Shown: positions 11,845 to 30,683 of the stretch, in pieces | How the letters are laid out: the number at the start of each line of letters is the position of its first letter | How positions within the stretch are numbered: the stretch's first letter is position 1 | Source of the DNA: Clostridiales bacterium | GTDB lineage: Bacteria > Bacillota > Clostridia > Oscillospirales > Oscillospiraceae | Reading direction: 5' to 3' | Length of the DNA stretch: 32,531 nucleotides | Assembly (NCBI GenBank): GCA_021205695.1 | Contig: JAJPXB010000070.1 | Coordinates: 1-32,531, forward strand | Position numbers and translations under genes: made by a program | The notes under the pieces: generated by a model | Database searches by the model: none | What the model was told of the DNA's origin: nothing | What the model saw: the letters and a program-made list of their open reading frames with translations, nothing else

Positions 11845-11892
11845 GTTTCGTTTCTCCTTTCGTTGTTGTCTGGTCAGGAAGGGACTTCCTGT

Positions 11893-11959
11893 ATTGTAAA
11901 AAAAGAGGGACACCCGGTCAACCCAGGTGTCCTAACCTTGCAAATATTGGCGTAACCTT
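11893..11959 (-). promoter_or_regulatory. LytTR-type direct repeats and promoter of the truncated GH3 gene
   Basis: Read on the - strand: 9-bp repeats AAGGTTACG (11959-11951) and AAGGTTAGG (11939-11931) start 20 bp apart. A 9-bp gap separates them from TTGACC (11921-11916), then 17 bp, then TACAAT (11898-11893). LytTR regulators such as AgrA bind 9-bp direct repeats with ~12-bp spacing next to the -35. A short stem with a T run (11932-11897) overlaps the promoter and could also end the kinase transcript. Confidence 0.65.
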
Positions 11960-13277
11960 ACGTCTTTTCCGGCACGGGGAGCAGTACACAGAGATGGAAC
12001 AGCTCATCCGCCGTGACCGTCACCTCTCCGCCGTATTTCTCCGCCACCAGGCGGATGGATTTCAGGCCAAAGCCGTGGTCTGCTCCCTCCGGCTTGCTGG
12101 TCTGGGGCAGTCCGTCCCGAAAGACCAGCTCGCCGGAATAGTTGTTGTCCACCAGGACGACCAGCATACCCCGTTGCTCCCGGATCTGGAGGCTGATGAT
12201 GCGGTCCTCGGGCCGCTCCAGCCGGGAGACCGCCTCGATGGCGTTCTCCAATGCGTTTCCAAACAGGGCGCAGATCTCCCCCACAGGGAGGAAGCAGAGC
12301 CTGCTCCCATCCGCAATGCAAGAGAGGCGGATGCCGTGCTCCTGGCAGTAGAGGCTGTTTCTGGTCAGTATGGTGTCCAGGGTCTCGTTGCCGGTCTTGA
12401 CTGAGGAGTCGTAGATGCTCACCATATGGCGGGTCTCCCGCAACTCCTCCAGATTGACATTGCCCCCCTGCTGCTCCCAGCTCTCCATCCGGTGTCGCAG
12501 ATCGTGGCACTTGATGTTGATAAGCTCGATGTTCTCCCGGCTCTGTTCATACTGCTCCCGCTGGATCTCGTTGATTCGCTGTAACAGTGTGCGTTCCTGC
12601 TCCCACTCCACCTGCTCCAGCACGCTGGTGCGGAGGCACAAGACAAAGCCGCAACAGAAAACGGAAAAGATGCGGGAGATGAGGGTCAGGGCGAAGCTCT
12701 CTCCGGCGTAGGTGTCCCGGACGCTGCTGAGGACGATGACCAGGCCCAAGGTGACGACGGACAACACCGCCAGATTCCGATACACCGTCTTGGAATAGGA
12801 GGCTGGCCATTTCTGCCTGGCAAACAGCCAGTAGCTCAGACAGAAAATGGGAAGATAGACCACTGCCGCAGAGAGTAAATACGGTAACATCCATGCACCG
12901 TCGCCGAGCTGGAACGCCTGAGAATTTTCATTCCAGAAAATCTGGAGAATCTGAGAGCCCATATGCTGGAGCAGGTAACCGCAGACGGCGCAAAAGACCA
13001 GGGGGATGGGTTCCTCCTGAAAACACAGAAAGGGGAGTAGCAGGGAGACGGCGAACATGAGCAGATAATACAGGGTATTGCTGACCAGCCAAAGCTCGCT
13101 GTTCACCGTCAACGCATATAGTGCTCCGCACAGCGCCATCTCTGCCAGAAAGGCCAACAGCAGCCTCCGGCCAAAGTGGGCCTTTCTCCGGTAGGAGGCG
13201 GCAAAGATCAGTTCGCCAACGGTCAGTTCCAATAAAAACAGAAGCTGTGTAATGAGGAAAACGGCTATATTCAGCAT
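11958..13277 (-). CDS. Sensor histidine kinase, GHKL (AgrC/ComD-like), module 1
   Basis: The protein has 439 residues. Five to seven hydrophobic segments fill residues ~1-215 (polytopic sensor region), then a linker helix and the kinase core. The H-box is INIKCHDLRHRM with the likely phosphorylated His258; the N-box is NALENAIEAV with Asn341/Asn345; the G-box is DHGFGLKSIR near residue 400. This architecture is typical of peptide-sensing HPK10 kinases that pair with LytTR regulators. Its ATG 13277 lies one base after the regulator stop, so the two are translated together. The signal is unknown, and no AgrD-like peptide or AgrB protease is visible nearby. It aligns closely with the kinase of module 2, His258 included. 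Confidence 0.88.
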   Translation of the reverse strand: MLNIAVFLITQLLFLLELTVGELIFAASYRRKAHFGRRLLLAFLAEMALCGALYALTVNSELWLVSNTLYYLLMFAVSLLLPFLCFQEEPIPLVFCAVCGYLLQHMGSQILQIFWNENSQAFQLGDGAWMLPYLLSAAVVYLPIFCLSYWLFARQKWPASYSKTVYRNLAVLSVVTLGLVIVLSSVRDTYAGESFALTLISRIFSVFCCGFVLCLRTSVLEQVEWEQERTLLQRINEIQREQYEQSRENIELINIKCHDLRHRMESWEQQGGNVNLEELRETRHMVSIYDSSVKTGNETLDTILTRNSLYCQEHGIRLSCIADGSRLCFLPVGEICALFGNALENAIEAVSRLERPEDRIISLQIREQRGMLVVLVDNNYSGELVFRDGLPQTSKPEGADHGFGLKSIRLVAEKYGGEVTVTADELFHLCVLLPVPEKT

Positions 13278-13278
13278 A

Positions 13279-13989
13279 TCAAGCGCCTCTTTTCGTATAC
13301 CATTCGCACAGCTCCTTCAGGAACTGTTTTCGCCTGGGATGGCTGATCTGCAGCTCGTCCCCGCCCACGTTTACGAGATACCCCCGTACCCATCGTATCT
13401 TCTCCGGGTTGACCAGGTAGCAGTTGTTGCAGCGCAGAAAGTGGCACTGACGCAGTGACTGCTCCGCATCGGACAGAGTCCCCCTTGCCTTGACATGCTC
13501 CTGTCGCTCCAGATGATAGGTCAGAGTGTGTCCCTGCACCTCCACATAGAGCAGCTCCCCGGAGGAGATGCGGGTCAGGCCGGTGGACTGCTGGATCACT
13601 AGCCATTGCGTCCGGCTCATCTCGATGGCCGACAGCGCCCGCTTCATCTTGAAGGAGAAGTCTGCGTAGGTCACCGGCTTGACCATGAAGTCCAGGGCGT
13701 CCACCTGATAGCCCTCCACCGCATACTGGGCCATATTGGTGACAAAGATCAGTTTTGCCTGCCGGTCCTTCGTGCGGAGCCGCCTGGCGGCCTCCATGCC
13801 GCTCATCCCCGGCAGCTCGATGTCCATAAACACCAGGTCATAGCCTGTTCCGGCATTCAAAAGGGGACGAGCGTCCGCAAAACGAGTGATTTTGACAGAC
13901 TCTCCCGTATCCGATTCAAACCGACGCAAATAGCTGCAGAGCGTATCTGCAGCCTTATCCTCGTCCTCTATAATCGCGATATGGAGCAT
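13279..13989 (-). CDS. LytTR response regulator, module 1
   Basis: The protein has 236 residues. The receiver domain (1-~118) has the acidic pocket E8-D9, phospho-acceptor Asp56 in LVFMDIELPGMSG, a Thr/Asn position in VTNMAQYA and Lys104 in MVKP. The LytTR DNA-binding domain (~135-236) includes LLYVEVQGHTLTYHL, RGTLSDAEQSL, FLRCNNCYLVNPEKI and the basic SHPRRKQFLKEL end. ATG 13989 is preceded by AGGGTGAG. It is first in the cassette; the likely target is the direct-repeat promoter ahead of the GH3 gene. Its upstream DNA meets recombinase debris within ~130 bp, in an AT-rich stretch with several TATAAT-like words at 14080-14100. Confidence 0.9.
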   Translation of the reverse strand: MLHIAIIEDEDKAADTLCSYLRRFESDTGESVKITRFADARPLLNAGTGYDLVFMDIELPGMSGMEAARRLRTKDRQAKLIFVTNMAQYAVEGYQVDALDFMVKPVTYADFSFKMKRALSAIEMSRTQWLVIQQSTGLTRISSGELLYVEVQGHTLTYHLERQEHVKARGTLSDAEQSLRQCHFLRCNNCYLVNPEKIRWVRGYLVNVGGDELQISHPRRKQFLKELCEWYTKRGA

Positions 13990-17068: not shown

Positions 17069-17479
17069 CTTTTCTTATTACTGTTCGTCACAATTTGCAG
17101 TATACCACACAGGCGAGAATCCGTTTGGCAACCCTAAAATCAGGCCAAATCCGTCAAGCAGGTATCAGGCCAGAGGGCTCATCCACGCCAAATTATTTTG
17201 TGTTTTGATTCCTTTTCAAATCGTTCCGTCTTGTTTTATTTAGCGCAGGTTCGCCAGAACCTGCGCTGTTTTTGCACCCGCAATACTCCTGCACTCCCCC
17301 CATTTCAAGGAGAATCTGAGCCGTACAATCTCCATCAGCATTCCAACATAATCTTGTATTTTGAGCATGATACACACTTTCACAGGCAGTGCTTTGCTGC
17401 AGGCACATCATAACTTTACACATGTAAAAAGCGTGCTTTTTCGAGGATTCTTAATTCTTCTTAAAAATCACGGATGAAA
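17069..17479. other. Non-coding stretch with one hairpin
   Basis: No convincing gene is seen. It contains a perfect 10-bp stem (AGCGCAGGTT 17242-17251 with AACCTGCGCT 17258-17267) followed by GTTTTT, which would terminate + strand transcription coming from the recombinase scrap. The rest is AT-rich, apparently eroded mobile DNA. Confidence 0.5.
17242..17273 (+). terminator. Intrinsic terminator upstream of the PqqD/VWA operon
   Basis: A perfect 10-bp stem with a 6-nt loop, then GTTTTT. It insulates the operon that begins at ~17480. Confidence 0.7.
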
Positions 17480-17508
17480 TTGACAGACGAAAGAGGATGT
17501 CATAAGAT
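17480..17508 (+). promoter_or_regulatory. Promoter of the PqqD-VWA-radical SAM operon
   Basis: TTGACA 17480-17485 and TAAGAT 17503-17508 have a 17-bp spacer. Further -10-like words (TATACT 17525-17530, TATAAT 17530-17535) follow. The leader to the first start codon is ~150 nt. Confidence 0.7.
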
Positions 17509-17672
17509 AAAAGGGAAACGCGGGTATACTATAATTGTTATGTTACTTTGCACATTTATAGATTGCTCCGAGTGAAATTTGCCGGAACTCTCCTGATTCC
17601 GACTGCTTTTGAATAACGACTTAAAAGAGAAGCAGTCAGAAAGGATCAGATGGTGCGCGTGAGGTGAAAACG

Positions 17673-17960
17673 GTGGAAAAGTCATCCCGTTACAGAAGAA
17701 ACCCTGATTACGTCTTTCGGGAGATTGTCGGGGAAAGCGTGATTGTACCGACCGGAGCTGCAAGCAAACGGTTTGCCGGCATGGGCACCATGAACCGTAC
17801 GGGCGCTTTTCTGTGGGGACTCCTGGAGCAGGAACGTTCCCTGGGAGAACTGAGCGAGTTGTTTGCCGGGGAATATGGCCTGACGGAAGAACAGAGCCTG
17901 CAGGATGTGGCGGAGTTTCTGGAGGCGGCCCAGTCCCACGATGCAGTGCTTCCATGTTAG
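17673..17960 (+). CDS. PqqD-family protein (RiPP recognition element)
   Basis: The protein has 95 residues. The pattern fits PqqD/RRE domains: an N-terminal beta strand pair (DYVFREIVGESVIVPTG), GTMNRTGAFLWGLLEQERSL (the MN-x-T-G/A-x-x-I/L-W signature), then ELSELFAGEYGLTEEQSLQDVAEFLEAA. RRE domains bind the leader of ribosomally made peptides and hand it to a radical SAM or other modifying enzyme. GTG 17673 has GAGGTG 6 bp upstream; GTG 17664 is an alternative without a good RBS. It is first gene of an operon that also holds a radical SAM/SPASM enzyme and a candidate precursor, which strongly supports the RiPP reading. Confidence 0.85.
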   Translation: MEKSSRYRRNPDYVFREIVGESVIVPTGAASKRFAGMGTMNRTGAFLWGLLEQERSLGELSELFAGEYGLTEEQSLQDVAEFLEAAQSHDAVLPC

Positions 17961-18028
17961 TTCGGCTACCCATTGCCTACAGCAATTTTACATAGACTAT
18001 CATTACCAGTTTGAGGAGGAAAGAAACC

Positions 18029-21000
18029 ATGAAAAAGGGAATTCCACGACGGATTCTGACAGCGGTTCTGTCTCTGGCCATGGTCTTGACCCTCTTGCCT
18101 GCCGCGGCGCTGGCGGTCGACGATACCGGAGAGACCAGCACCAGCGGCATCGAGCTGAGCAAGACCGCCACGCTGGAAGACGACGGTACCTATACCATCG
18201 ATTTGGAAGCGTATGCCACCGGTACGACCACAACGACGACCACTACCAGTAGCGTACCGCTGGACATTGTGCTGGTCATCGACCAGTCGGGGTCTATGAC
18301 CGACAGCATCACCACCAGCACAAGCTATACTGCAAGGGACAGCCAAGGCTATACCTATAGTAATTTAAGCAGTAGTTGGGGTCAGTCAGCTCCCACCTAT
18401 TATTATCTGGCCGAAGATGGGAATTATTATCAGGTGAAGCAGGGCAGTCAAAGTACTGGCTCTTTCTTTAGCCGCACAACCTACTATTATCTTTATTACA
18501 CTGATTCCAACGGTAATAATGTCTATCTGAGCGGTACCGGCACTACCAGTACCCAGCCCACGAATGTGACGAGTGACAGCACTACCATTTGGACCGGCAT
18601 CCTGTACACCGTTACGTCCACCACTACCACCAAACTGGCTGCGTTGAAGGATGCTGTCACCAGCTTCGTAAGCACCATTCAGGAGGATGCAGAGGCTAAT
18701 GACGTCGACCACCGCATTGCCATTGTGGGTTTTGCGTCTGACAACAATGACGGTACAAGCGGAACTACTTCGGAGGGTTATAGCATCAGCTCCGGCAGTA
18801 GCTCAAGCTACTGGATCAATACGGGTTTGTTTATTGGCGGCTCTCTGAAAAACTATGGCTCCAGCAGTAATAACACAAACACCCAGCTGACCACCAGCGA
18901 TTATCAGAGCGCTCTGGTCTCTGTTAATAGCAACGGCAGCGTGGCTACCTCTATCACCACGGCCATCGACAACTTCGCCGCTAGTGGTGGTACCCGGACT
19001 TCCTACGGTATGAAAATGGCGGAACAGGTGTTCGCCAACAATTCCGCAAGCTATACAAAGGATGACGGCACGACAGGTACCCGCAAACGCATTGTGGTCG
19101 TGTTCACCGATGGTCAGCCCGGCACAGGTTCCTCTGTTGATACCACTGAGGCGAACTCCTCCATCAGTTCGGCTTATACGCTGAAAAACACCTATGGCGC
19201 AACTGTGTATTCGGTGGGACTGTATACGACAACACAGGACACTGACGTCACGACCTTTATGAACTACATCTCCTCGAACTATCCTAACGCCACGTCGATG
19301 ACCATTGGTGGGACACAGAGCGCGACCAAATATTCTATGACTGCGTCCAATGCAACTGAGCTGAACAACATCTTCCAGATCATCACAGAAGATGTCTCCC
19401 AAGACTCCACCACCGTCACCCTGGACGCCGAATCCGTGATGAAGGACATCATGGGGGATGGCTTCACGCTGCCGAATGATTTTACGGTTGAAAAGAATGT
19501 GACTATCAAGACGGTTGCGGGCAGCGTTAACGCAGACACCGGAAAAATTGAGTGGGGAAGTGAAACGGAGAATGAGGCGAGCGCCTCTGTCAACGGAAAC
19601 ACCGTCTCCGTCACCGGCTTTAACTATGCGGACAAGTACATTTCCAGTGGTCATGCGGGTGAGAAGATTTGTGTCACCATCACCAACGTCCTGCCCACCG
19701 AGAGCGTGACCACCGGTGATCCGGTCTACACCAACGACGCCGACTCCGGCATCTACGCCACCGCGGACGCAGAGGAAGCGACCGCGACCTTCGAGCAGCC
19801 GCAGACCATTATCACTAAGAAGCTTTACGTTCTGGACTACGCTAAGACTGCTACGCTGACCGACCTTGACCAGTCCAGCGTCACCAGTATCGTCAGCAGC
19901 TACCAGAAGGTTTCTGCCAGCGATGAGAAGACTCTGACCCTGACCTACGGCACCTCCGCTCTGGCGACCGCGCTGACCTACACCCCCACCACCATGCAGT
20001 GGAGCGGCTATGACAGCTTCTATGTGTTCGGTCGGACCACCAACAGCGAGGTCATGACCTACGCCACCAACACCGCCGCCCGTGTGGAAAACGGTGACAC
20101 TACCACCGCCAACCTGTGGAGCAAGGTCAGCGTCATCCCCGCCAACAATGTGTACTATGAAGATGATTTCATCACCACCTCTACAGATGGCACAACCAGC
20201 ACCGGGACTGTCGGCATCGTCTACACCGGCGAATGGCAGACGGTTGGCGAGAGCGCAGGCAACACCGAGACCGCCAATAATGACACCTACGGCTGGGAAA
20301 CCACCCTTGCTAACGACATCGGCGATAGCGATGGCGCCTCCCGTGTGTCCAGCACAGACGGCGCAACCGCCAGCTTCACTTTCACCGGCACTGGTGTTGA
20401 CATTTATAGCCGCACCGACCTGACCACTGGCACAGTATATGCGAAGCTGACAGGAAAGACAAGTTCCGGCACTTCTGTTACCAAGCGTCTGATCGTAGAT
20501 GATCTGGCCGAATCCGCCGGAGTGGGAACCTATTACCAAATTCCTACTGTCTCCTTCGAAGTCGAGTACGGCACCTACACCGTGACCTTGACCGTCACCA
20601 ACCAGGCCGATAATGGCGAGCGTTGCACCTATTATCTTGACGGTATTCGTGTCTACAATCCATTGGGTAACAGCAATGTTACCGGTGATGCCTATGACGC
20701 TTACGCAGCCGACAACGAGCTGAACGCCGTGTTCAAAGAAGTCCGAGACATCCTGATTAACGATGTTAAGGGCTACAGTGCAGACTCCACCGTAACCGGC
20801 GCAGTTTTCATCGATGAGATTAACGATGAGACGAGCATCACCACCGGCAGCCTGAGTGACTATGTGGCCTATGGACCTAAGAACGAGGTCTACCTGGATA
20901 CGGATCAGGCCATCGTCTTTAAGGTGGACGCAAGTAGCGATTACACCTACTATCTGGGGCTCAAGTCTGCCGGCGGTTCCGGCACCACTGTTGAATTTAC

Positions 21001-21466
21001 CAAAGGCAGTGGCAAGAGCGAAACGACTATTAGCCATTCCACCGATCTCTACTATGAGGTTACACCGGACAGCAATGGCTATATCATGGTGAAGAACACC
21101 GGCGAGAGCCTGCTCTCCATCACCAAACTGCGCACCACGACCACGGCTGCCTCTGCTTCTGATGGCATTTCCTCCGCCAGCCTGGACGACCTGGTCAGCT
21201 ATGCCAACAGCTTTAGCTTGTTGAGTACGGTTGCTTACACCGTGGACGCCGTCACTGAGGACGAGCTGGATACCAGCATCGATGCCGAGACGGACACTGA
21301 TGCAAGCGCCAAAACTGACGATGTAGTCGAGGATTTGGATGAGGCCGATATAGCCATTGACAACCCTACGGAGGATACCGTGGAGGAGACTGAGGAAAAC
21401 GGTCGGCAGTCCGCCTTCAGCAGCCTGTTCGATACCATCCGGAACTGGTTCAATGGAAGGAGATGA
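18029..21466 (+). CDS. Giant secreted von Willebrand factor A protein
   Basis: The protein has 1145 residues, starting at ATG 18029 (GAGGAGGA upstream). A signal peptide (KKGIPRR, hydrophobic core ~9-25, cleavage near AALA-V at ~29) precedes a poly-Thr run (~66-73) and a VWA domain whose MIDAS begins at DIVLVIDQSGSM (D85, S87, S89) and ends with VVVFTDGQPG. About 110 Ser/Thr/Tyr-rich residues are inserted between the MIDAS loop and the first VWA helix. Then come beta-rich, Thr/Ser/Asp-rich regions, one (~800-880) resembling a sugar-binding jelly roll (SFEVEYGTYTVTLTVTNQAD, YYLDGIRVYNP). The C-terminus is acidic (TEDTVEETEEN) with a final amphipathic basic helix (LFDTIRNWFNGRR). No LPxTG motif or transmembrane anchor is seen. 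It shares the operon with the RiPP genes. An extracellular adhesion or scaffold role is inferred. Confidence 0.82.
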   Translation: MKKGIPRRILTAVLSLAMVLTLLPAAALAVDDTGETSTSGIELSKTATLEDDGTYTIDLEAYATGTTTTTTTTSSVPLDIVLVIDQSGSMTDSITTSTSYTARDSQGYTYSNLSSSWGQSAPTYYYLAEDGNYYQVKQGSQSTGSFFSRTTYYYLYYTDSNGNNVYLSGTGTTSTQPTNVTSDSTTIWTGILYTVTSTTTTKLAALKDAVTSFVSTIQEDAEANDVDHRIAIVGFASDNNDGTSGTTSEGYSISSGSSSSYWINTGLFIGGSLKNYGSSSNNTNTQLTTSDYQSALVSVNSNGSVATSITTAIDNFAASGGTRTSYGMKMAEQVFANNSASYTKDDGTTGTRKRIVVVFTDGQPGTGSSVDTTEANSSISSAYTLKNTYGATVYSVGLYTTTQDTDVTTFMNYISSNYPNATSMTIGGTQSATKYSMTASNATELNNIFQIITEDVSQDSTTVTLDAESVMKDIMGDGFTLPNDFTVEKNVTIKTVAGSVNADTGKIEWGSETENEASASVNGNTVSVTGFNYADKYISSGHAGEKICVTITNVLPTESVTTGDPVYTNDADSGIYATADAEEATATFEQPQTIITKKLYVLDYAKTATLTDLDQSSVTSIVSSYQKVSASDEKTLTLTYGTSALATALTYTPTTMQWSGYDSFYVFGRTTNSEVMTYATNTAARVENGDTTTANLWSKVSVIPANNVYYEDDFITTSTDGTTSTGTVGIVYTGEWQTVGESAGNTETANNDTYGWETTLANDIGDSDGASRVSSTDGATASFTFTGTGVDIYSRTDLTTGTVYAKLTGKTSSGTSVTKRLIVDDLAESAGVGTYYQIPTVSFEVEYGTYTVTLTVTNQADNGERCTYYLDGIRVYNPLGNSNVTGDAYDAYAADNELNAVFKEVRDILINDVKGYSADSTVTGAVFIDEINDETSITTGSLSDYVAYGPKNEVYLDTDQAIVFKVDASSDYTYYLGLKSAGGSGTTVEFTKGSGKSETTISHSTDLYYEVTPDSNGYIMVKNTGESLLSITKLRTTTTAASASDGISSASLDDLVSYANSFSLLSTVAYTVDAVTEDELDTSIDAETDTDASAKTDDVVEDLDEADIAIDNPTEDTVEETEENGRQSAFSSLFDTIRNWFNGRR

Positions 21467-21471
21467 TTGAT

Positions 21472-21744
21472 ATGAAAGCAAATTATGAAAAGCCAATGAT
21501 TCTGTTCGAGTCCTTCGAACTGAACCAATCTATCGCAGAGAGCTGTGGCGTGACCGGCGGTGGAAATAGTCTGGGTAAGCCGACCCATTGGAGCAAGGCC
21601 ACTTGCGGCTGGAGCATCGGCGGAACCATTGTCATCTGGGTCAGCGAAGAAACCGGCTGTAACGATTTCGCTGGCGTGGACGAAGATGTCGATGGCCTGT
21701 GCTACAACAACCCATCCCCTGGTCAGTCGATTTTCAGCTCCTGA
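21472..21744 (+). CDS. Candidate RiPP precursor peptide, four cysteines
   Basis: The product is a 90-residue peptide. ATG 21472 has AAGGAG 9 bp upstream; ATG 21463 overlaps the VWA stop and is less likely. The N-terminal ~24 residues (YEKPMILFESFELNQSIAES) look like a leader of the type seen ahead of Cys-rich peptides in gut Firmicutes. The remainder is rich in Gly/Ser/Thr, with Cys25, Cys45, Cys63 and Cys77 separated by 20, 18 and 14 residues, Trp at 40, 47 and 56, and a DGLCYNNPSPG ... FSS end. It has no membrane segment or enzyme fold. Radical SAM thioether (sactipeptide/ranthipeptide-like) linkage at the Cys or aromatic residues is plausible, as is a partner role for the VWA protein. An immediate terminator behind it is typical for a precursor made in excess over its enzymes. 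Confidence 0.65.
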   Translation: MKANYEKPMILFESFELNQSIAESCGVTGGGNSLGKPTHWSKATCGWSIGGTIVIWVSEETGCNDFAGVDEDVDGLCYNNPSPGQSIFSS

Positions 21745-21784
21745 TACCAAATAAACAACGGTCCCATTCCGGGCAATCACGCTG

Positions 21785-21815
21785 GGGCGGTCGGGCATGG
21801 CCCGGCCGCCCTTTT
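21785..21815 (+). terminator. Internal terminator after the precursor gene
   Basis: A 12-bp GC stem (GGGCGGTCGGGC 21785-21796 with GCCCGGCCGCCC 21800-21811, one G-U pair) and an ATG loop are followed by TTTT. It lies inside the operon and would partly shut off transcription into the maturation genes, keeping precursor and VWA mRNA in excess. Confidence 0.8.
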
Positions 21816-21834
21816 CTTGATAGGACAAAACCAT

Positions 21835-22716
21835 ATGAACTATGAATACCGGATGGCCGGGATCAGGGTTTTGCTTGAGCTGCCCTTTGCGATCTCCATT
21901 CAGCCATCTTCAGAATCGTTTATCAGAAAACCCGCTGATGAAAATCCAAATATGCGCTTTGTCTGCCGTCCTGTCTCAAAATTACCCACTCCGCCGGAGG
22001 GCGGACATGAGGAGAGCAACCGGTGCTATGTGGAGACGGGCACAGAACGACGGGTTTTCTTTCGTCCTTCGCCTTCGGGAGAGCCGTATGCCTGCGTCGC
22101 CTGGCGGGCAGCGGAGCCGAATCTTCTCCGTTGCGACTATTTGCAGGGGCAGGAATTCCGTCTGAACTTTTCCATGCGGCTTTGCGACATGCTGGGGCTG
22201 GAATCCCTGCTGCTCCAGTTTGGCGGACTCTTACTCCACTCCGCATTTATCCGCTGGCAGGGGCAGGGCATCCTGTTTTCCGCCGATTCCGGCGTGGGAA
22301 AGTCCACCCAAGCGGATCTATGGGTGAAATATCAGGGAGCAGAGATCTTAAACGGCGACCGGGCGGGGCTCAGAAAGGTAAACGGTGTGTGGACGGCCTA
22401 CGGCCTGCCCTATGCCGGCTCCTCCCGGGTCTATCGGAATGAATCCGCTCCGGTGGCCGCCGTTTTCATGCTGGAACAGGCGAAGGTCAACGAGGTGCAG
22501 CCGCTCACTCCGGCCCAGGCCCTGCGAAAGCTCTACCCCCAGACCACCGTTCACGGCTGGGATACGGACTATGTGCAGCAGGCACTGCCCCTCATCGAGA
22601 ACCTTGTGACCTCTGTGCCGGTCTATCTGCTTCGCTGCCTGCCGGACGCGGGGGCGACGGAGGCGGCAAAACGTACGCTTTTGGCTCCGCCCCGGAAAGG
22701 AACTGACGAAATATGA
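21835..22716 (+). CDS. HPr kinase-like P-loop protein
   Basis: The protein has 293 residues. A poorly conserved N-terminal ~120 residues lead to LLLHSAFIRWQGQGILFSA and a Walker A SADSGVGKST (149-158) of the HprK/P type, then ILNGDRAGL at the Walker B-like position (Asp175) and GLPYAGSSR. Proteins of this family occur in lasso-peptide and other RiPP clusters, where a related kinase phosphorylates the precursor, and with PqqD proteins. A role in precursor phosphorylation or nucleotide-driven handling is an inference. The start is uncertain: ATG 21835 (weak AGGA) was chosen, with TTG 21817 an alternative. Its last codons overlap the radical SAM start by 4 bp (ATGA). Confidence 0.72.
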   Translation: MNYEYRMAGIRVLLELPFAISIQPSSESFIRKPADENPNMRFVCRPVSKLPTPPEGGHEESNRCYVETGTERRVFFRPSPSGEPYACVAWRAAEPNLLRCDYLQGQEFRLNFSMRLCDMLGLESLLLQFGGLLLHSAFIRWQGQGILFSADSGVGKSTQADLWVKYQGAEILNGDRAGLRKVNGVWTAYGLPYAGSSRVYRNESAPVAAVFMLEQAKVNEVQPLTPAQALRKLYPQTTVHGWDTDYVQQALPLIENLVTSVPVYLLRCLPDAGATEAAKRTLLAPPRKGTDEI

Positions 22717-23852
22717 ACAACATCAAATATGTGGAGGCGCCCATCACGGAATACCTGCACCGGAAAGCTTCCAAACTGCTGTCACCCTTGAGCGGCACCT
22801 TTGAAGTGACGCCCGTGTGCAACATGAGCTGCCGGATGTGCTATGTGCGCATGACAAAAGCGGAGCAGGAGGCCGTCCGCCCCCTGCGCACGGCGGAGGA
22901 ATGGCTGCGCCTGGGCGAAACCGCAAAGGAGCGGGGGATGCTCTATCTGCTGCTCACCGGCGGAGAACCCTTTTCCCGTCCGGACTTCCGCAAAATCATG
23001 GAGGGACTGCATCGGATGGGCCTGCTCATCTCCATCAATTCCAATGCCACGCTTATCACAGAGGATACGGTGGAATGGCTGAAGGAGGTTCCGCCTGTCC
23101 GCATGAATATCACGCTGTATGGAGCCTCTGACGAGACGTATGCGCGCCTGTGCCGCAATCCGAACGGGTTTACGCAGGTCACACGCGCGATTCATCTGCT
23201 GAAGGATGCGGGCATCCCCATCAAGATCAATTGCAGCGTCACCCCATTCAACTGCGACGATCTGGAGGAGATTTTCGCCTTCTGCGAGCGGGAGGCGTTG
23301 ATCGTCCAGGCCACCAGCTATATGTTTCCGCCCCTGCGCCGGGACGCCTCCATGGTGGGAAAGAATGAGCGCTTTTCTCCGGAGGATGCGGCGGCATATT
23401 CCGCCAAAATCGAATACCTGTCCAACGGGCGGGAGCGGTTTTTGCAGCACGTTGCCGACGATAAGATGAGCGGCCTTCCCGTCGACCAGGACAGCGACTG
23501 TCAGGAGATCGAGGGCGAGGGGATCCACTGCCGGGCCGGAAAGTGCAGCTTCTGGGTGACCTGGGATGGGCGGCTGCTGCCCTGCGGGATGCTGCCGGGA
23601 AAAGAAAATGCAGATGTGTTTGACATCGGCTTTGACGAGGCGTGGCGCAGGGCGACAGAGGAGGCGGCGGCCATCCGGCTCCCCGCCAAATGCACCAACT
23701 GCAAAAACAAGGAGATTTGCCGTCCCTGTGCGGCCTCAGTGCTGACCGAGACGGGAACCTACTGCAACGTGCCGGAATACCGCTGTCGGATGGCAGAGTC
23801 CTATCCACAGGCGGCAAAACGTCTGGCGGAGCAGCTGAAAAGGGAGGCGTAG
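22713..23852 (+). CDS. Radical SAM enzyme with SPASM domain (peptide maturase)
   Basis: The protein has 379 residues. The CxxxCxxC cluster motif is C36-NMS-C40-RM-C43, followed by the AdoMet-binding GGEP (LLTGGEPFSRPDF), the SINSNATLI strand and the NITLYGA motif. The SPASM region carries Cys273, Cys278, Cys291 (WDGRLLPCGM), Cys327, Cys330, Cys336, Cys339, Cys351 and Cys358, enough for two auxiliary Fe-S clusters. SPASM enzymes of the PqqE/AlbA/anSME type cut or cross-link peptide side chains and usually need an RRE partner, which is present as the first gene of the operon. The ATGA overlap with the kinase-like gene implies coupled translation. The candidate substrate is the four-Cys peptide encoded at 21472. 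Confidence 0.92.
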   Translation: MNNIKYVEAPITEYLHRKASKLLSPLSGTFEVTPVCNMSCRMCYVRMTKAEQEAVRPLRTAEEWLRLGETAKERGMLYLLLTGGEPFSRPDFRKIMEGLHRMGLLISINSNATLITEDTVEWLKEVPPVRMNITLYGASDETYARLCRNPNGFTQVTRAIHLLKDAGIPIKINCSVTPFNCDDLEEIFAFCEREALIVQATSYMFPPLRRDASMVGKNERFSPEDAAAYSAKIEYLSNGRERFLQHVADDKMSGLPVDQDSDCQEIEGEGIHCRAGKCSFWVTWDGRLLPCGMLPGKENADVFDIGFDEAWRRATEEAAAIRLPAKCTNCKNKEICRPCAASVLTETGTYCNVPEYRCRMAESYPQAAKRLAEQLKREA

Positions 23853-23855
23853 GTC

Positions 23856-24803
23856 ATGGGAAAACGTGAAAAGCGGGAGAAACAGAGCGTCCTCCCGCTG
23901 GTGATTGCAGCTGTTGTCCTTCTGGTGGTCATCGTCGCCCTGGTCCTGGCGCTCACAGGGAGCGACATCGGGGATTCGTCCAAGGAGAGCGACCTGTCCG
24001 CTACGGTAGATACCGAAGCGACGACGGAGGAGGCAACTGAAACGGAGGCCGCCGATGAAGCAGACGACGGGGTGTCGACTCAGGAGAGCGGATCGGAGGA
24101 GACGGCCTCGAGCGAAGAGGGCAGCTCCGGGGAGACAGAGGCTCAGAGTGCCATTTCCGGCGGCAATACAGGCAGTGATGCACAGGCCGACACGCCAGCG
24201 CAGAATTCGGGCAGCGCTGCCAGCGAGACCGATGCAGGCATTTCCTTTCCCTACACTGCCACGGCGGACGAGCTGAAATTGCTGGCAGTCTATGATTACA
24301 GCGGCTATTACATTGAGGACGGCACAGAGACCGCCATCGACAGCGTTGCGGTTCTGGAGATTGAGAATACCTCCAGCCAGGCGATTGAGTACGCCGTTAT
24401 CTCCCTGACCGCAGACGGAGAGACCCTGACCTTTGAGGTGTCCCTGTTGCCTGCTGGGGGGACCGCCCTGGTGATGGAGGCGGACAAAAAATCCTGCAGC
24501 GAGACGGCAACCTTTACCTACGAGGGCAGTGAAATTGCAGCCCTCGACTCCTTTGACCTGTGCGAGGGCCAGGTAAGCGTTTCCACAGACGAATCCGGCG
24601 CCGTCACCGTTGCCAACATCAGCGGGGAGGATATCTCCGAACTGAGACTGTTCTACAAGAACCAATTGGATACCGGAGAATATGTGGGCGGCATCGCCTA
24701 CACGGTGAAGCTGGAAGACCTGGCGGCCGGAGAGAGCCAGACAGTCTATCCTTCCCATTTTGACCCGGAGTACGGCGTGGTTATGATGGTGCGTATTTAC
24801 TGA
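23856..24803 (+). CDS. Single-pass membrane protein with acidic stalk and extracytoplasmic domain
   Basis: The protein has 315 residues. A basic start (GKREKREKQ), one membrane helix (~12-34), a ~95-residue Glu/Ser/Thr/Ala stalk (repeated EE, ETE and SGS steps) and a beta-rich domain from ~130, with ELKLLAVYDYSGYYIEDGTE, a VLEIENTSSQAIEYAVISL Ig-like strand pair and YVGGIAYTVKLEDLAAGESQ. The topology puts the C-terminal domain outside the cell. It starts 3 bp after the radical SAM stop, so it is the last gene of the operon. It is unrecognised; an anchor or receptor for the VWA protein or the processed peptide is a possible role. The 5' half has a different composition (poly-acidic) but ordinary codon use. 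Confidence 0.75.
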   Translation: MGKREKREKQSVLPLVIAAVVLLVVIVALVLALTGSDIGDSSKESDLSATVDTEATTEEATETEAADEADDGVSTQESGSEETASSEEGSSGETEAQSAISGGNTGSDAQADTPAQNSGSAASETDAGISFPYTATADELKLLAVYDYSGYYIEDGTETAIDSVAVLEIENTSSQAIEYAVISLTADGETLTFEVSLLPAGGTALVMEADKKSCSETATFTYEGSEIAALDSFDLCEGQVSVSTDESGAVTVANISGEDISELRLFYKNQLDTGEYVGGIAYTVKLEDLAAGESQTVYPSHFDPEYGVVMMVRIY

Positions 24804-25407: not shown

Positions 25408-26040
25408 TCACTTGAAATATTTGCTGGTGCGGTAGCCGATGGCCTCCGCCAGATGGAGGGCGGAGATCTGCTCTGCTCCCTCCAGGTCGGCCACCGTCCG
25501 GGCCACCCGGAGGATGCGGTCATAGCTCCGGGCGGTCAGGCCCAGCCGCTCAAACGCCTGGCGGAGCAGGGTGTTTCCCGCCTCGTCCAGAACGCAGTAC
25601 CGGGACAGCTCCGGCTGACCCATGTGGGCGTTACAGTCCACTCCGGTGCCCTGATAGCGCTGCCGTTGCCGCTCTCTGGCCCGCTCCACCCGCTCCTTGA
25701 TCTGAGCGGAGGACTCCCCGGGCTTTCGGTGGCTCAGCTCCTCGTAGCTCAGGGCGGGGACGTCTACCTGGAGGTCGATCCGGTCCAGCAGCGGCCCGGA
25801 GATCCGGGAGCGATACCGCTCCACGTCCCGCTGGCTGCACCGGCACCGCCCGTCGTCATAGCCGTACCAGCCGCATTTACAGGGGTTCATGGCGCAGACC
25901 AGCATGAACTGGCTGGGATAGACCACTGTCCCCGCGACCCGGGAGATCTGCACCCTTCCGTCCTCCAAGGGCTGGCGGAGCACCTCCAGGGTGTCCCGAC
26001 TGAACTCGGGCAGCTCGTCCAGGAAGAGGACGCCCCACAG
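25408..26040 (-). pseudogene. comM: Mg-chelatase-like ATPase ComM/YifB, 5'-truncated
   Basis: About 210 residues of a protein that is normally ~510. It contains the Walker B region GVLFLDELPEFSRDTLEVLR, QPLEDGRVQISR, VCAMNPCKCGWYG with the Cys-rich loop (CKCG ... CRCS), YRSRISGPLLDRIDLQVDVP (sensor/Arg finger) and the C-terminal helical lid ARSYDRILRVARTVADLEG ... HLAEAIGYR. The N-terminal S5-like/Lon-like domain and the Walker A motif are missing. Upstream of GVLFLDEL the DNA changes at ~26040 to unrelated mobile-element-like sequence; an open frame continues to 26058, but those codons are not comM. In other bacteria ComM is a DNA helicase for branch migration in natural transformation. Without Walker A it cannot hydrolyse ATP. 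The 3' end and terminator are intact. Confidence 0.85.
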
Positions 26041-26083
26041 ACGTCGTGGTAAATACAATTTCGCTATTCATATCGGCCATTGT

Positions 26084-26235: not shown

Positions 26236-27285
26236 TCATGGATTTAGAGTAATTGTTTCACTGACATAGTTGTCGACTGCCCAGTCATCGTTGTCATATA
26301 TATTGAGTTCGAATTCGATTTCATCAACCTCCGTAATTCCGTTGTCTTCTAAGTCTTCACTATACCAGTACATAGAGCTAAATGCACACGTCCCGGCTGC
26401 GACAGTATCTGCATAGTAAGGATCAACCATGTAGCCGTTTACAGAAGCATTATCCACGCTGTACATAACTTTAGAATCTGTTTTATTCACCAAGTACAGA
26501 TTGACAGCATATCCCCAAACATCATCGTATTCACATCCAGTCACAATCACGGTCACATACTCATTGTCAACAAGAACGATATCTGTATCCAGATTCTCTC
26601 GCTCGAAGGTAGTGGCGTTTTCCTCACCATATGGATAAACGTGAACCGTCACATTTGCTACGTCATCCGCTGTCCAATCATCGTTATCATATACGCTGAA
26701 TGTCAGTTCAATATCCGTAAACACTGTAATTCCGTTTTCTTCGAGCGTATCCGAATTATAAAAACTAATCTCTTCATTGGATTTTTTCCCCGCTGTTACT
26801 TCAGATGCAAAGTAGGGGTCACACTTGACTCCATTGATAGAAGCATCATCAACAGAGAACATATAGGTCTTATCAGAAGATTTATTTTCCAAGAGGGCAG
26901 TGAGTGTGTATCCCCATATGTTGTCAGCATCTATCCCGGTGATTGTGATGGCACATTCGTCATTATCAACCACCACTAGTTCTTCAAAACTGGTCTCAGT
27001 CTCTTCGGTATCGCTCTCAATGGATTCGTCCTCTTCGGTCTCAATTCCTTCGGCCTCTGTATCTTGGGCCTCGGTCTCATCATCTATGACATCTTCAATC
27101 AGAGCTTTATCATCATTGTTATCGGTGTTTTCAACAACGGTTTCATCTTCGTCACTATTGCTTTCCTCTTCCACTGTGCTGCTGGATTCCTCCTCAGTAT
27201 TGGAAGTGGTAGTATTACCATCTCCACAAGCAGCAAGGCTCATCAGTAATAAGGACGAAAGAAACAGTGCCATTACTTTTTTCAT
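26236..27285 (-). CDS. Lipoprotein with two copies of a ~115-residue beta domain
   Basis: The protein has 349 residues, starting at ATG 27285 (AAAGGAGA upstream; the in-frame ATG 27303 overlaps the RBS). It has a type II signal peptide, KKVMALFLSSLLLMSLAAC with lipobox LAAC. An ~85-residue acidic Glu/Asp/Thr/Ser stalk follows, then two homologous domains. Domain 1 begins VDNDECAITITGIDADNIWG and domain 2 VDNEYVTVIVTGCEYDDVWG. Both continue with a leucine-containing strand, a VD(D/N)AS(I/V)NG turn, DPY(F/Y)A, an E(D/E)NGIT segment and YDNDDW near the end. It is exported and anchored to the outer face of the membrane. The gene is clearly AT-richer than its neighbours. No partner gene is adjacent. 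The function is unknown; an Ig-like (DUF4352-type) binding role is possible. Confidence 0.82.
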   Translation of the reverse strand: MKKVMALFLSSLLLMSLAACGDGNTTTSNTEEESSSTVEEESNSDEDETVVENTDNNDDKALIEDVIDDETEAQDTEAEGIETEEDESIESDTEETETSFEELVVVDNDECAITITGIDADNIWGYTLTALLENKSSDKTYMFSVDDASINGVKCDPYFASEVTAGKKSNEEISFYNSDTLEENGITVFTDIELTFSVYDNDDWTADDVANVTVHVYPYGEENATTFERENLDTDIVLVDNEYVTVIVTGCEYDDVWGYAVNLYLVNKTDSKVMYSVDNASVNGYMVDPYYADTVAAGTCAFSSMYWYSEDLEDNGITEVDEIEFELNIYDNDDWAVDNYVSETITLNP

Positions 27286-27338
27286 TTTAATTTCTCCTTT
27301 CATCGATTATTCGTCGAGTACAAAGTACTTTCTAGCAC

Positions 27339-27549: not shown

Positions 27550-30522
27550 TTATTCAGGCTTTTTCCACTGGGTCTTTCTCACCAGGACAATCACACCTGC
27601 CAGAGCTGCCACGCCCACGACTACATCCAGGGCGATCAGCCAGTATTCCCACAGAGGCAGCGTCTGTTCCACCGTGGCAGAGGAGGAGATACCGTTCATG
27701 GCAGCACTCCGAGAGACAGCATACAGGATGTGCTTGGAAGCAGTGCGGAGCTCAGTCATGACCGTGGCATTGCTTTCGTAGCCTTCGATCTGCCAGTTAT
27801 CAGTACCAGAGTTCAGCCAGAGGTCAACGCCGCCTTCCAGGCCACCCCGGATAGCCAGAGCGGGGAACGCTTCAGGATAGGACGCCTGGTCAGTGATGAG
27901 GACACCGTCAAAACCCCATTCGTTTCGGAGCACTTCGGTCATCAGGCCATAGTGGTCACCGCTCCAGGTCAGGCCCACCCGGTTCATGCTGGCCATAACG
28001 CCCAGTGCGCCACCATCGGTGATACTGGTTTCAAAGGGCTTGAGATAGATTTCACGGATAGACTGCTCGTTGGCAAAGGTGTTGATGGTCGTCCGGTTGG
28101 TCTCCTGGTCATTCAGGGCAAAGTGCTTGATGAAGCAGATGACACCCTGAGAGGTCGCACCCCGAACTGTAGCGGCGCCCATCTGTCCAGAGAGGAAGCC
28201 GTCTTCGGAGTAATACTCAAAGTTTCGACCGGAGAAGGCGGTGCGGTGAATGTTCATGGAGGGAGCGTACCAGCCTACAAAGTTCAGTTCGCCCTGGGCC
28301 AGGCAGTCCTGTCCAATCAGGGTGCCCATAGTCTCCAGGATCTCCACATTCCAGGTGGAAGCCAGCACTACCTCAGAGCACCAGGCATAGGTGGACTCCA
28401 CCACATTGACGCCGGTAGTACCTGCGTTACCCACATAGGCAGGGCCATCCACGCAAACGGTAGCAGGTGCACTGACGGAGTTGACTGCCTGAGTCTGATA
28501 TCCGCCTACCCGAACCAGGTTGTACATCTCCTCTGCTGTAAGCTGATCTAACAGGTCATCCCACAGAGGATCGTCTGCATCTACGTCACGCATCATAGCC
28601 AGGGTCAGGCCGTTGTCCGCCCCGGTGGTGGGCATTTCCGCATCGGGATCATCTGTGCCCTCAGCGATCGCCAGCGCCGCAATCATCTCATCGGTGGCAA
28701 CTACCTGATAGGTCTGAGGGTAAGTGCCTTCCCAATCGCTGCGAGTCAAGTAGGTAAAGCTTTCATCATAGGTCTGCATATCGGCATCGGTAAACTGGTT
28801 TGTAATGGCATAGCCGGTATCTGTGGAAACAGAATAGGTCTCAGTGGACTCCACTGCGAAGCTCACTGCGTTGGCAGCACTATATTCACCATCCAGGTCA
28901 GTATAGCCCTTAGCAGCCAAAATATTGTTTACTGCGTTATGCGCATCGGTGGCTGCGGTAAAGTAATAATCGCCAGCCTCCAGAATATAGGTGCCCTCAC
29001 CATTATTGGCAGTGGAGTCGTATGCTTTCAGCTCTTCCTCCTCCACGGTGATGGCCAGGGTGGCCGTCTCACCAGGCTGGATCGTGTCGGTCTTGCCAAA
29101 GCCCACCAGCTGTACGGAGGCCTTCTCCACACCGGCTGTCTTGTCGTAGTCGGTATAGGGGGACTGGAGGTAGAGCTGAACCACGTCCTTGCCTGCAACG
29201 TCGCCGGTATTGGTGACCGCCACCTCGAAAGTGAACAGTCCATCCTCATAGGAGGAACTGACCAGCTCTTGAGTGAAGGTAGTGTAGCTCAGGCCATAGC
29301 CAAAGGGGAACTGCACCTCGTCGGCATACACCCAGGTATCGTTGCCCTCAGCTGTAACACCCACGGAGGCGTCTGCATTGCCCTGGCCCATGACCACGTC
29401 CTCATACCGAGTCTCGTAGTACTTGTAACCAACATAGATGCCCTCCTGGTAAACCACATATGTGCTGTACCATTCCGTCTCTGCATTGGTCATGACAGCG
29501 TTGCCGAAGTTCTGAACAGCGGGAGCCCCGGTGGAGTCATAGGCATAAGTGTCTACCAAGTGGCCGGACGGATTGATGTTGCCATTGAGGATCTCGCCCA
29601 GCGCATACAGACCATCCTGACCGGGATTGCCGATCCACAGACAGGCATCCACACCATAGGCCTCTTCATCCAGGAAGGACAATTCCATAGCGTTGCCGGA
29701 GTTGATGATGACGATCACCTTGTCAAACTGGCTGCTGACATAGGAAAGTAAGTCTTCTTCGTTTTTGGTCAGTTCCAGATAGCTCCGGCCAAGATCCTCC
29801 TCAGAGTCCAGCCCCTCGGAGTGGACGGTGCCATAATATCCCTCAATGTCCATCGTTTCCAGATAACTCTCATCGTAGGCCACTGGTACGTCAGAACTCT
29901 CACTTCCGGATCGAGCAAAGACGACGATAGCTGCATCGCCATACTCCGCAAAGCTGTCCGTTTCGGTGTCAGTAAGCAAATCGGTGCTGGCCTCGTGGAT
30001 AACATATCGACCAGTCCCTGCAATATCTGCTACATCCATGCGAATGTCCGCTGCAGCGCCGGTTGTGTAGAAATCCCACATGACCTCATTGACTGTGAAG
30101 CCAGAGGCTTCCAGTGCGGTTTTCAATGTTGGCGCAGTGGTCGTGTCTACTGCACCGGAGCCGCCGCCGCCATACAAAATGTCTGCAGAGGCCACACCAA
30201 ACAGCGTCACGCTTTCGCTGCCAGTCATAGGCAAAGCGTTGTCCTCGTTTTTCAGCAGGACAGTACCCTCGCCAGAGGCCTCAGTAGCAGCGGCAGCATC
30301 CGCTTGAAGGCGCTCATCCTCGCTGCTGAACAAGTACTCGAAGTACTCTGTGTTCTCCGTTGTGTCACCTTCCTTCACCGTGTAGCTGGTTTGTCCCAGG
30401 TAGGTGGTAATGATGGGGGCATATTTCAGTGCGTAGAAATTGCCCACGATCAATGCTATTACCAGGATGGCAATGAGTACCAAGCAAGGGATGGACTTAC
30501 GTTTTGACATGGTTTTCTTCAT
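27550..30522 (-). CDS. Glycoside hydrolase family 3, permuted domain order, membrane-anchored at both ends
   Basis: The protein has 990 residues, starting at ATG 30522 with AAGGAGG upstream. Domains in order: N-terminal membrane helix (~11-33); alpha/beta sandwich (GEGTVLLKNEDNALPM, LFGVASADILYGGGGSG, WIGNPGQDGLYALGEIL, NPSGHLVDTYA); QFPFGYGLSYTTF and a fibronectin-like domain (VTNTGDVAGKDVVQLYL); then the catalytic (alpha/beta)8 barrel with STWNVEILETMG, ICFIKHFALNDQETNR and GFDGVLITDQA, where Asp878 is the expected nucleophile; finally a second membrane helix (~960-983) and a basic tail. Classical GH3 enzymes have the barrel first, so this is the swapped order found in a Firmicute subgroup. 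The active domains should face outward. Beta-glucosidase/xylosidase-type activity is inferred and the substrate unknown. It is the last gene of the second LytTR-kinase-GH3 module. Confidence 0.88.
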   Translation of the reverse strand: MKKTMSKRKSIPCLVLIAILVIALIVGNFYALKYAPIITTYLGQTSYTVKEGDTTENTEYFEYLFSSEDERLQADAAAATEASGEGTVLLKNEDNALPMTGSESVTLFGVASADILYGGGGSGAVDTTTAPTLKTALEASGFTVNEVMWDFYTTGAAADIRMDVADIAGTGRYVIHEASTDLLTDTETDSFAEYGDAAIVVFARSGSESSDVPVAYDESYLETMDIEGYYGTVHSEGLDSEEDLGRSYLELTKNEEDLLSYVSSQFDKVIVIINSGNAMELSFLDEEAYGVDACLWIGNPGQDGLYALGEILNGNINPSGHLVDTYAYDSTGAPAVQNFGNAVMTNAETEWYSTYVVYQEGIYVGYKYYETRYEDVVMGQGNADASVGVTAEGNDTWVYADEVQFPFGYGLSYTTFTQELVSSSYEDGLFTFEVAVTNTGDVAGKDVVQLYLQSPYTDYDKTAGVEKASVQLVGFGKTDTIQPGETATLAITVEEEELKAYDSTANNGEGTYILEAGDYYFTAATDAHNAVNNILAAKGYTDLDGEYSAANAVSFAVESTETYSVSTDTGYAITNQFTDADMQTYDESFTYLTRSDWEGTYPQTYQVVATDEMIAALAIAEGTDDPDAEMPTTGADNGLTLAMMRDVDADDPLWDDLLDQLTAEEMYNLVRVGGYQTQAVNSVSAPATVCVDGPAYVGNAGTTGVNVVESTYAWCSEVVLASTWNVEILETMGTLIGQDCLAQGELNFVGWYAPSMNIHRTAFSGRNFEYYSEDGFLSGQMGAATVRGATSQGVICFIKHFALNDQETNRTTINTFANEQSIREIYLKPFETSITDGGALGVMASMNRVGLTWSGDHYGLMTEVLRNEWGFDGVLITDQASYPEAFPALAIRGGLEGGVDLWLNSGTDNWQIEGYESNATVMTELRTASKHILYAVSRSAAMNGISSSATVEQTLPLWEYWLIALDVVVGVAALAGVIVLVRKTQWKKPE

Positions 30523-30674: not shown

Positions 30675-30683
30675 TTTTGGCGT

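Follow-up and report, generated by a model that had tools for sequence, protein, structure and literature searches.

Gene Organization of the Cassette

The six-gene cassette considered here lies on the forward strand of contig JAJPXB010000070.1 of a Clostridiales bacterium assembly (GCA_021205695.1, family Oscillospiraceae); the whole 32,531-nucleotide stretch analysed is referred to as the window. The first gene (17664..17960, GTG start) encodes a 98-residue PqqD-family recognition element (RRE) for ribosomally synthesized and post-translationally modified peptides (RiPPs), which passes the Pfam PqqD model (PF05402, E 2e-11, 44.5 bits against a gathering cut-off of 23.4). It is followed by the gene for a giant secreted protein of 1145 residues (18029..21466), with a Sec-type signal recognised by eye at the N-terminus and matches to both VWA models in the N-terminal half (VWA_2, E 8.4e-7, 30.0 bits, cut-off 27; VWA, E 2e-5, 25.4 bits, cut-off 23.8). 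A conserved C-terminal region, encoded at 19970..21205, is common to giants with differing N-terminal halves. The precursor peptide (21472..21744) has 90 residues, with a leader of the form YEKP...SIAESC, four Cys, and a C-terminal Ser. Its ATG at 21472 has AAGGAG 9 nt upstream, and a second possible start, the in-frame ATG at 21463, overlaps the stop of the giant. Next are an HprK-like P-loop protein of 293 residues (21835..22716), with His135, Lys156, and Asp175 kept, and a radical SAM/SPASM enzyme of 379 residues (22713..23852), with CxxxCxxC and seven SPASM Cys, whose start overlaps the HprK-like stop (ATGA). The last gene, 3 bp further on, encodes an acidic protein of 315 residues that by eye is a single-pass membrane protein (23856..24803) and for which no Pfam family exceeds its cut-off. 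All six reading frames were found, with the sizes, strand, and junctions given by the first-pass annotation.

This arrangement is more than chance, as it recurs in many genomes and the ratio of nonsynonymous to synonymous substitution rates (dN/dS) of the peptide gene is low. It represents a recurring RRE/radical-SAM/HprK-like module coupled to giant secreted proteins via their conserved C-terminal region, and more than one operon is of this type.

Recurrence and Mobility

The genome of the window contains four PqqD genes and four close radical SAM genes, on contigs C12, C47, C5, and C40, and all four cassettes are ordered PqqD, giant, peptide, HprK-like, radical SAM. The three paralogous cassettes (L038, L039, L040) have no membrane protein and are followed by further large proteins, namely a BspA-type leucine-rich repeat protein (L038), a glycoside hydrolase of family 2 (L039), and a protein of 1565 residues (L040). 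Of 200 family genomes, 17 have a radical SAM homologue at E 1e-30, counting that of the window, so the module is common enough to be sought in cultivable strains. A radical SAM match at E 7.2e-79 or better defines 21 family loci. The peptide gene shares the cassette in 18 of them (L046 and L047 run off the contig end; L057 has none), and a giant bearing the conserved region is found in 16 (L042, L046, and L047 run off the contig end; L048 and L057 have none). The first-pass annotation had asked whether homologous radical SAM genes occur without the peptide and VWA genes, and the answer is mixed: peptide and giant mostly accompany the enzyme, whereas the VWA domain does not follow it.

The membrane protein is an optional component. 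Among 52 stretches scanned, it was found in the window, L033, L034, L035, L037, L041, L042, and L044, and also in L047, L053, L054, L055, L150, and L159. The VWA domain is not general either, and the other three cassettes in the window's genome are devoid of the membrane protein.

The limits of the module are given by five orthologous loci from metagenome bins (L033-L037; radical SAM enzymes 84-92% identical), which match window DNA only within 17606-24803. The left edge comes from L033 and less exactly from L036, with L034, L035, and L037 starting inside the cassette; the right edge comes from L033, L034, L035, and L037, with three of the matches stopping at 24803, the final base of the membrane-protein gene, and L036 ending inside the cassette. 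With the similarity confined to this interval, the cassette is a transferable module that moves as a unit into differing surroundings. Phage-type integrase genes lie directly upstream of PqqD in L033 and L039, and L040 carries an integrase whose N-terminal sequence is identical to the one in L039. The genus mates G046, G134, and G194 have no radical SAM homologue (E 1e-30), no giant C-terminal region, and no peptide. In an empty-site comparison, the similarity of G046 to the window ends at an ion-channel gene, with no clean junction. Plasmid and phage origins of the cassette were considered and rejected, with no radical SAM relative at E 1e-20 in plasmids or in phages; viral contigs gave partial matches only, 19-27% identical.

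The Giant Secreted Protein

The first-pass annotation described the set as built around a giant VWA protein. Comparison of the giants replaces this description, with the VWA domain as an exchangeable front end and the C-terminal ~410 residues as the conserved part. In BLAST searches of the window giant against 17 other cassette giants, the C-terminal half matches 16 of the 17, the giant of L054 being added by iterated search. The N-terminal half matches only near orthologues (L033, L034, and L036 align with it), parts of L041 and L056, and the signal peptides of L039 and L040. The conserved stretch corresponds to residues ~654-1065 of the window reading frame. The profile built on these copies recovers 15 of them at E 1e-79 or better, and partial or diverged ones at 6.8e-21 (L054), 8.5e-19 (L044), 1.2e-10 (L037), and 3.5e-7 (L055).

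A VWA domain is recognised by Pfam in two of the eight giants scanned, those of the window and L041. Other N-terminal halves contain GH20 (L045) or sub-threshold bMG3/PA14 (L051), and no Pfam domain is recognised in the N-terminal half of the L038, L039, L040, and L050 giants, where Big_9 and Cadherin-like matches either lie within the C-terminal part or border it. The conserved stretch is covered by no Pfam family, and Big_9 touches it in 2 of 11 members. A single solved glycosyl hydrolase matches a 72-position piece of the region (E 0.002), which weakly supports a carbohydrate-binding-like fold. A sortase-type anchor was considered and rejected, since a pattern search of the C-terminal ends of 14 giants found no LPxTG-like motif; L053 has a PQTGD-type tail by eye.

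In the window's own genome, the profile of the C-terminal region has exactly four matches, which are the four cassettes. Among sampled genomes of the order (n = 394), the region occurs in 12, a close kinase in 13, and both in 11 (Fisher p 1.2e-18, only a guide as the genomes are related and kinship is uncorrected). The close-kinase threshold of E 1e-69 was chosen after seeing a gap between 5.2e-71 (G370) and 1.1e-53 (G310). The sole genome with the region and no close kinase is G359, whose giant runs off its contig; the close kinase occurs without the region in G411 and in G370, where the kinase gene lies at the contig start.

The Precursor Peptide and Its Pairing with the Giant

The Tyr and Pro of a YxKP motif are present in 28 of 28 complete precursors; this set was assembled through similarity to the window peptide, a choice that favours the presence of the motif. 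Four Cys positions are occupied in 28, 27, 28, and 25 of them. The last residue is Ser in 26 of 28, the window included, versus 10 of 163 other cassette proteins. One exception is L056, which ends in Phe and for which no kinase gene was found in the stretch read; the other, L160, is taken up below. The 28 peptides omit the incomplete L035 and L162 and also L058, L059, L149, and distant kin; outside the set, L251 ends in FTS and L263 in AFS, again with Ser. These features agree with the earlier proposals that RRE, SPASM enzyme, HprK-like protein, and Cys-rich precursor form a RiPP-type set and that the small peptide is the likely substrate.

The linear polyphosphorylated peptides (LPPs; Popov et al. 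2026, PMC13381572) offer a comparison for the leader. According to this source, HprK-like kinases modify linear RiPPs, and the leader YxxP is needed for RRE binding. The window leader, YEKPMILFESFELNQSIAES, contains YxxP and has no HQ...FET of the LPP consensus YxxPxVLxHQxIxFETxxS.

The peptide gene is under purifying selection among orthologues, with dN/dS of 0.09-0.43 in 6 of 10 pairs, the other four being saturated. Peptide identity among orthologues is 0.48-0.79, versus 0.81-0.92 for the radical SAM enzyme. A peptide profile has exactly four matches in the window's own genome, all at cassettes, and none in three genus mates or in 13 other family genomes taken as controls. Of 35 genomes searched, it matches 16, each of which also has the enzymes; absence by profile is no proof, as the profile misses L251 (G394 gives no match).

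The peptide gene is usually placed directly after the giant. Of 24 loci that have the giant as the neighbour upstream, 21 show a peptide start between -23 and +44 nt relative to the giant stop, and L044, L054, and L055 a gap of 128-180 nt; these distances are approximate, with gene starts taken from the longest frames. Peptide and giant also stay together in rearranged loci, such as L251 (enzymes upstream), L160 (peptide before giant), L262 (radical SAM, giant, peptide, kinase), and L166 (no enzymes adjacent). The pairing is usual and not strict. Genome G052 (L048, L056, L160, L263, L167, L249, L250) encodes four peptides and five giants, mostly unpaired or rearranged, which perhaps function in trans as a set.

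Short peptides with related leader types are also found beside radical SAM genes at L061 (7317-7448) and L062 (6126-6425). They end in Ile and Cys, and no HprK-like gene was found within either stretch.

Hairpin and Promoter Signals

A long G-C-rich hairpin followed by T occurs after the peptide gene in 15 of 28 loci versus 0 of 560 dinucleotide shuffles. The same detector finds it after 1 of 26 HprK-like, 0 of 25 radical SAM, 2 of 24 giant, 1 of 11 membrane-protein, and 5 of 19 PqqD genes. In the window, this strong terminator-like hairpin lies between the peptide and enzyme genes on the + strand (21784..21812; 13 pairs, 11 of them G-C, then T-rich), in an intergenic stretch with a folding z of -2.6. 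It splits the six genes into PqqD, giant, and peptide on one side and kinase, radical SAM enzyme, and membrane protein on the other, a division that the first-pass annotation had left unmentioned. Judged by consensus features only, the simplest reading is partial termination, which would yield more giant and peptide than enzyme.

Other signals at the window locus do not exceed chance. A consensus scan places a terminator-like hairpin upstream of the cassette (17241..17268, +; 12-bp stem, T tail); the region has seven such hairpins versus 8.1 expected in shuffles, and this one alone is no evidence. The one promoter reported earlier does exist as a sigma-70-like site, TTGACA-17-TAAGAT (17480..17508, +; 10 of 12 consensus matches), but promoter-like sites number 8 in the region against 5.1 +/- 2.1 expected. 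No RNA family reaches its gathering score in the window.

The Radical SAM and HprK-like Enzymes

The radical SAM enzyme scores 92.8 bits with the Radical_SAM model (cut-off 29.5) and 20.0 with SPASM, just below the cut-off of 21.5. The combination of CxxxCxxC with a seven-Cys motif marks a radical SAM/SPASM peptide maturase. C36, C40, C43, C273, C291, C327, C330, C336, C339, and C358 are invariant in 23 of 23 members, and the order C-x12-G-x4-C ... CxxCx5CxxC ... C is that of a two-cluster SPASM domain. Against solved structures, the best profile matches are SkfB (6efn, E 9e-30) and 5v1q (E 1e-19), which we take to be CteB; sulfatase maturases are also among the matches.

The P-loop protein scores 13.3 bits with Hpr_kinase_C (PF07475; cut-off 33.3), a model that 1 of 21 members matches at E 0.01, and 37 bits with the NCBIfam model ScmC (cut-off 125). 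Among solved structures, the family profile matches HPr kinase/phosphorylases best (E 0.006), and the alignment keeps the His, P-loop, and last Asp co-linear. These weak but co-linear matches point to kinship with HprK. His135, Lys156, and Asp175 are invariant in 21 of 21 members. The window clade has a single-Asp site, xD[RK], with a TQAxLW signature after the P-loop.

The site type goes together with the end of the peptide. A C-terminal Ser peptide is found at 34 of 37 single-Asp loci versus 2 of 15 two-Asp loci (Fisher 8e-8, not corrected for kinship). These 52 loci omit those with no identifiable peptide and repeat copies of the same place. The site type was assigned manually, since an automated pattern gave none for 35 entries; L096, which has Glu ahead of the Asp, was put with the single-Asp loci, and the Ser group includes L035 (peptide cut at the 5' end) and L033 (split kinase gene). 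In an exploratory midpoint-rooted tree, the single-Asp/Ser combination appears in three places: the giant-linked clade, L077/L080/L113, and L058/L059/L096. The third of these falls within the two-Asp enzymes, with support that is modest. The link between single-Asp site and C-terminal Ser, in about three groups, is suggestive only. The C-terminal Ser would be the best candidate target, and the chemistry need not be plain phosphorylation. A C-terminal Ser rule for all HprK-like RiPP loci was rejected, as 13 of 15 two-Asp relatives end otherwise.

In L033, the HprK-like gene (5894-6775) is split into two frames by sequencing error or decay, and the peptide still ends in Ser. At L097/L157, L098, L099/L158, and L100, a radical SAM gene and a two-Asp HprK-like gene accompany two short YxxP peptides per locus with ends other than Ser; the genes surrounding L157 and L158 are, by eye, of polysaccharide type.

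Relationship to Known Systems

LPPs (PMC13381572) resemble the cassette in their discrete RRE, HprK-like kinase, YxxP leader, occurrence in Bacillota, and patchy distribution. Relatives of the cassette such as L059 also share NTP_transf_5, the ABC transporter, and a Wzz neighbour with them. The window cassette differs in adding a radical SAM/SPASM enzyme and the giant, and the term 'radical SAM' is absent from the main text of PMC13381572. The SpI peptidase, NTP transferase, and MsbA-like transporter that this source gives for LPPs are all missing from the window cassette: none was found among the six cassette proteins and thirteen further window proteins scanned, and the best SpI match in the genome is below cut-off, on another contig. 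The LPP kinase LppK targets Ser3 (PMC13381572), whereas the window precursor ends in Ser. L059 itself encodes PqqD, NTP_transf_5, Wzz/AAA, a radical SAM enzyme, a 60-residue peptide ending in SSS, an HprK-like protein, and an ABC transporter. From its gene content, it is plausibly an LPP-like cluster plus a radical SAM gene, which would bridge LPPs and the giant-linked cassettes.

Paeninodin-type phosphorylated lasso peptides (PadeK, ThcoK) share the HprK-like kinase and the C-terminal Ser of the precursor, which is the target of those kinases (PMC9266682). Neither a macrolactam cyclase nor a B2 peptidase, both typical of lasso peptides, is among the Pfam matches of the window cassette, which has a radical SAM enzyme instead, and the lasso kinases have two Asp (PMC9266682) where the active site of the window enzyme is short of one. 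In SynChlorMet (TIGR04249-04251), an HprK-like protein, ScmC, is likewise combined with radical SAM enzymes, ScmE and ScmF, and all three are among the NCBIfam matches; their scores stay well below the cut-offs (ScmC 37/125, ScmE 88/400, and ScmF 60/400 bits). To our knowledge, a giant partner and a C-terminal Ser are not part of the SynChlorMet cassette description. Sactipeptide and ranthipeptide maturases such as SkfB are the best solved relatives of the radical SAM enzyme and have the full SPASM Cys set; they differ in that the window RRE is a separate PqqD protein and an HprK-like enzyme and a giant are added. By gene content, then, the cassette would work like a phosphorylated RiPP pathway but falls outside LPPs, lasso peptides, and SynChlorMet. 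The combination of an RRE, radical SAM enzyme, and HprK-like protein with a giant was undescribed in titles and abstract openings among the matches listed from open-licence PMC literature.

Proposed Mechanism and Alternatives

The reading favoured here, held with even confidence, is that an RRE/radical-SAM/HprK-like RiPP related to LPPs is made as the partner of a giant secreted protein. We infer its chemistry, export, and docking; the gene set, recurrence, usual pairing, hairpin, and motifs were observed. PqqD, giant, and peptide would be transcribed highly, with the hairpin after the peptide passing only part of transcription to the enzymes. The PqqD protein would bind the YxKP leader and hand the precursor to the radical SAM/SPASM enzyme, which would cross-link the Cys-containing core, and the HprK-like enzyme would phosphorylate the conserved C-terminal Ser. 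A transporter encoded elsewhere would then export the product, which would dock on the giant, itself exported by Sec, at its conserved C-terminal region. What the assembly binds or does would be set by the N-terminal half of the giant, which varies (VWA, GH20, or other). That a RiPP is made from the window peptide is very probable, and that peptide and giant act together is fairly likely. Phosphorylation of the C-terminal Ser stands at an even chance, and physical docking on the C-terminal region is a tentative proposal.

A Pfam scan of the cassette recognised no exporter, leader peptidase, or immunity gene, in agreement with the first-pass annotation, although the genome has eight ABC_membrane matches, on contigs other than the window's. 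The conclusion of that annotation that this is not an ordinary bacteriocin cluster is supported. A PCAT-type exporter was rejected as the genome is without a C39 peptidase, and no SipW-type peptidase scores over the cut-off in the genome. The loci L059, L053, and L063 encode their own ABC transporters by eye, confirmed by Pfam for L059.

Several observations weigh against the favoured reading. The cassette has no exporter and the genome no C39 peptidase; the window giant has no LPxTG-like motif; and the hairpin detector finds nothing after the peptide in 13 of 28 loci. In G052, the peptides encoded on C21 (L048, accompanied by enzymes) and on C29 (L263, by itself) have no giant in 14 and 18 kb, and the giants on C25 and C16 have no peptide alongside, that on C14 reaching the contig edge. 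The L160 peptide ends in Tyr despite a kinase gene, and that of L078, a single-Asp locus, ends in Gly. The first of the two adjacent Asp is present in 0 of 21 HprK-like members, the residue before Asp175 being Gly, Asn, Ser, or Ala (Gly in the window). BsfK needs both D186 and D187 for catalysis, with a His said to stabilise the last Asp, and phosphorylates Ser3 and not the C-terminus (PMC10368454). LppK likewise phosphorylates Ser3 (PMC13381572). With the first Asp missing throughout the clade, kinase activity is therefore not assured.

The absence of the first Asp bears on a rival that we consider unlikely, in which the HprK-like protein is not a Ser kinase and either spends ATP on some other step at the C-terminus of the peptide, such as activation of the carboxylate to join the peptide to another molecule, or serves as a non-catalytic ATP-binding adaptor. 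The single-Asp site with its TQAxLW signature and the excess of C-terminal Ser at single-Asp loci fit this proposal, but the His, P-loop Lys, and second Asp are invariant, and related RiPP systems set a precedent for kinase activity. These include the two-Asp PadeK/ThcoK-type kinases, with a His-Lys-Asp-Asp site, which phosphorylate the C-terminal Ser of their precursors (PMC9266682). A further alternative, rather unlikely in our judgement, is a free RiPP: the modified peptide would be released to act by diffusion as an antimicrobial or signal, and the giant would be an adhesin of independent function that shares the transcript by chance. The precursors diversify faster than the radical SAM enzyme, and fast precursor diversification is typical of diffusible RiPPs. 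The cassette also moves, as judged from its absence in genus mates and from integrases, which lie just upstream in L033 and L039 and of which L040 also carries one, and L048 and L263 have a peptide with no giant nearby. A shared transcript alone, however, cannot explain why the giant C-terminal region stays with the peptide in the rearranged cassettes L251, L262, L166, and L160 when the N-terminal half varies, and a free product sits poorly with a cassette in which no immunity gene or exporter is recognised.

The missing exporter and leader peptidase, together with the lack of C39 and of SipW-type peptidases over cut-off in the genome, could instead mean that the modified peptide remains intracellular as a cofactor or regulator that controls or assists the giant's expression or folding. 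We regard this as improbable, given that the LPP-like relatives L059, L053, and L063, whose radical SAM and HprK-like enzymes are of the same types, carry an ABC transporter, which indicates that export is usual in the wider group. Sec exports proteins unfolded, and an unfolded giant would leave an intracellular partner little time. Very improbable is a small protein that is no RiPP at all, forming a disulfide-bonded secreted or surface subunit with enzymes acting on another substrate. Four Cys could form two disulfides, and SPASM enzymes also act on proteins, as the sulfatase maturases among the profile matches illustrate; against this, the window peptide has no signal peptide by eye, its YxKP leader occurs with PqqD in the same cassette, and the peptide profile matches only enzyme-bearing genomes.

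If the partnership of RiPP and giant is correct, it would define a RiPP family whose product works in the service of a macromolecule and not as a small molecule on its own, with radical SAM and HprK-like chemistry coupled in one module. The tie between the peptide and one class of secreted protein in many genomes gives it a concrete, testable role. A speculative extension, itself with a small chance of being right, is that the RiPP is a built-in part of the giants, with the C-terminal region as a dedicated receiver for the cross-linked peptide of the adjacent gene and the (phospho)Ser as the handle for attachment. The single-Asp enzyme would have arisen together with the C-terminal Ser, whose carboxylate may replace the Asp or be activated to join peptide and giant.

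Neighbouring Genes in the Window

To the right of the cassette, a Mg-chelatase/ComM-type gene (25408-26058, - strand) is present as its last 216 codons only, covering Mg_chelatase profile positions 108-206 and the C-terminal domain. The abrupt end of the frame near 26058 suggests an insertion boundary right of the cassette. It is followed by a very acidic lipoprotein-like protein (26236-27303, - strand), in which two similar repeats can be made out by eye; it matches no Pfam family at E 0.01. Kinship of this protein with the cassette membrane protein was considered and rejected, as BLASTP found none. Two sets of a GH3-domain protein and a GHKL histidine kinase lie at 10720-13989 and 27550-32492, both on the - strand. 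The first set adjoins a LytTR response regulator, and the second has a short frame that resembles one by eye.

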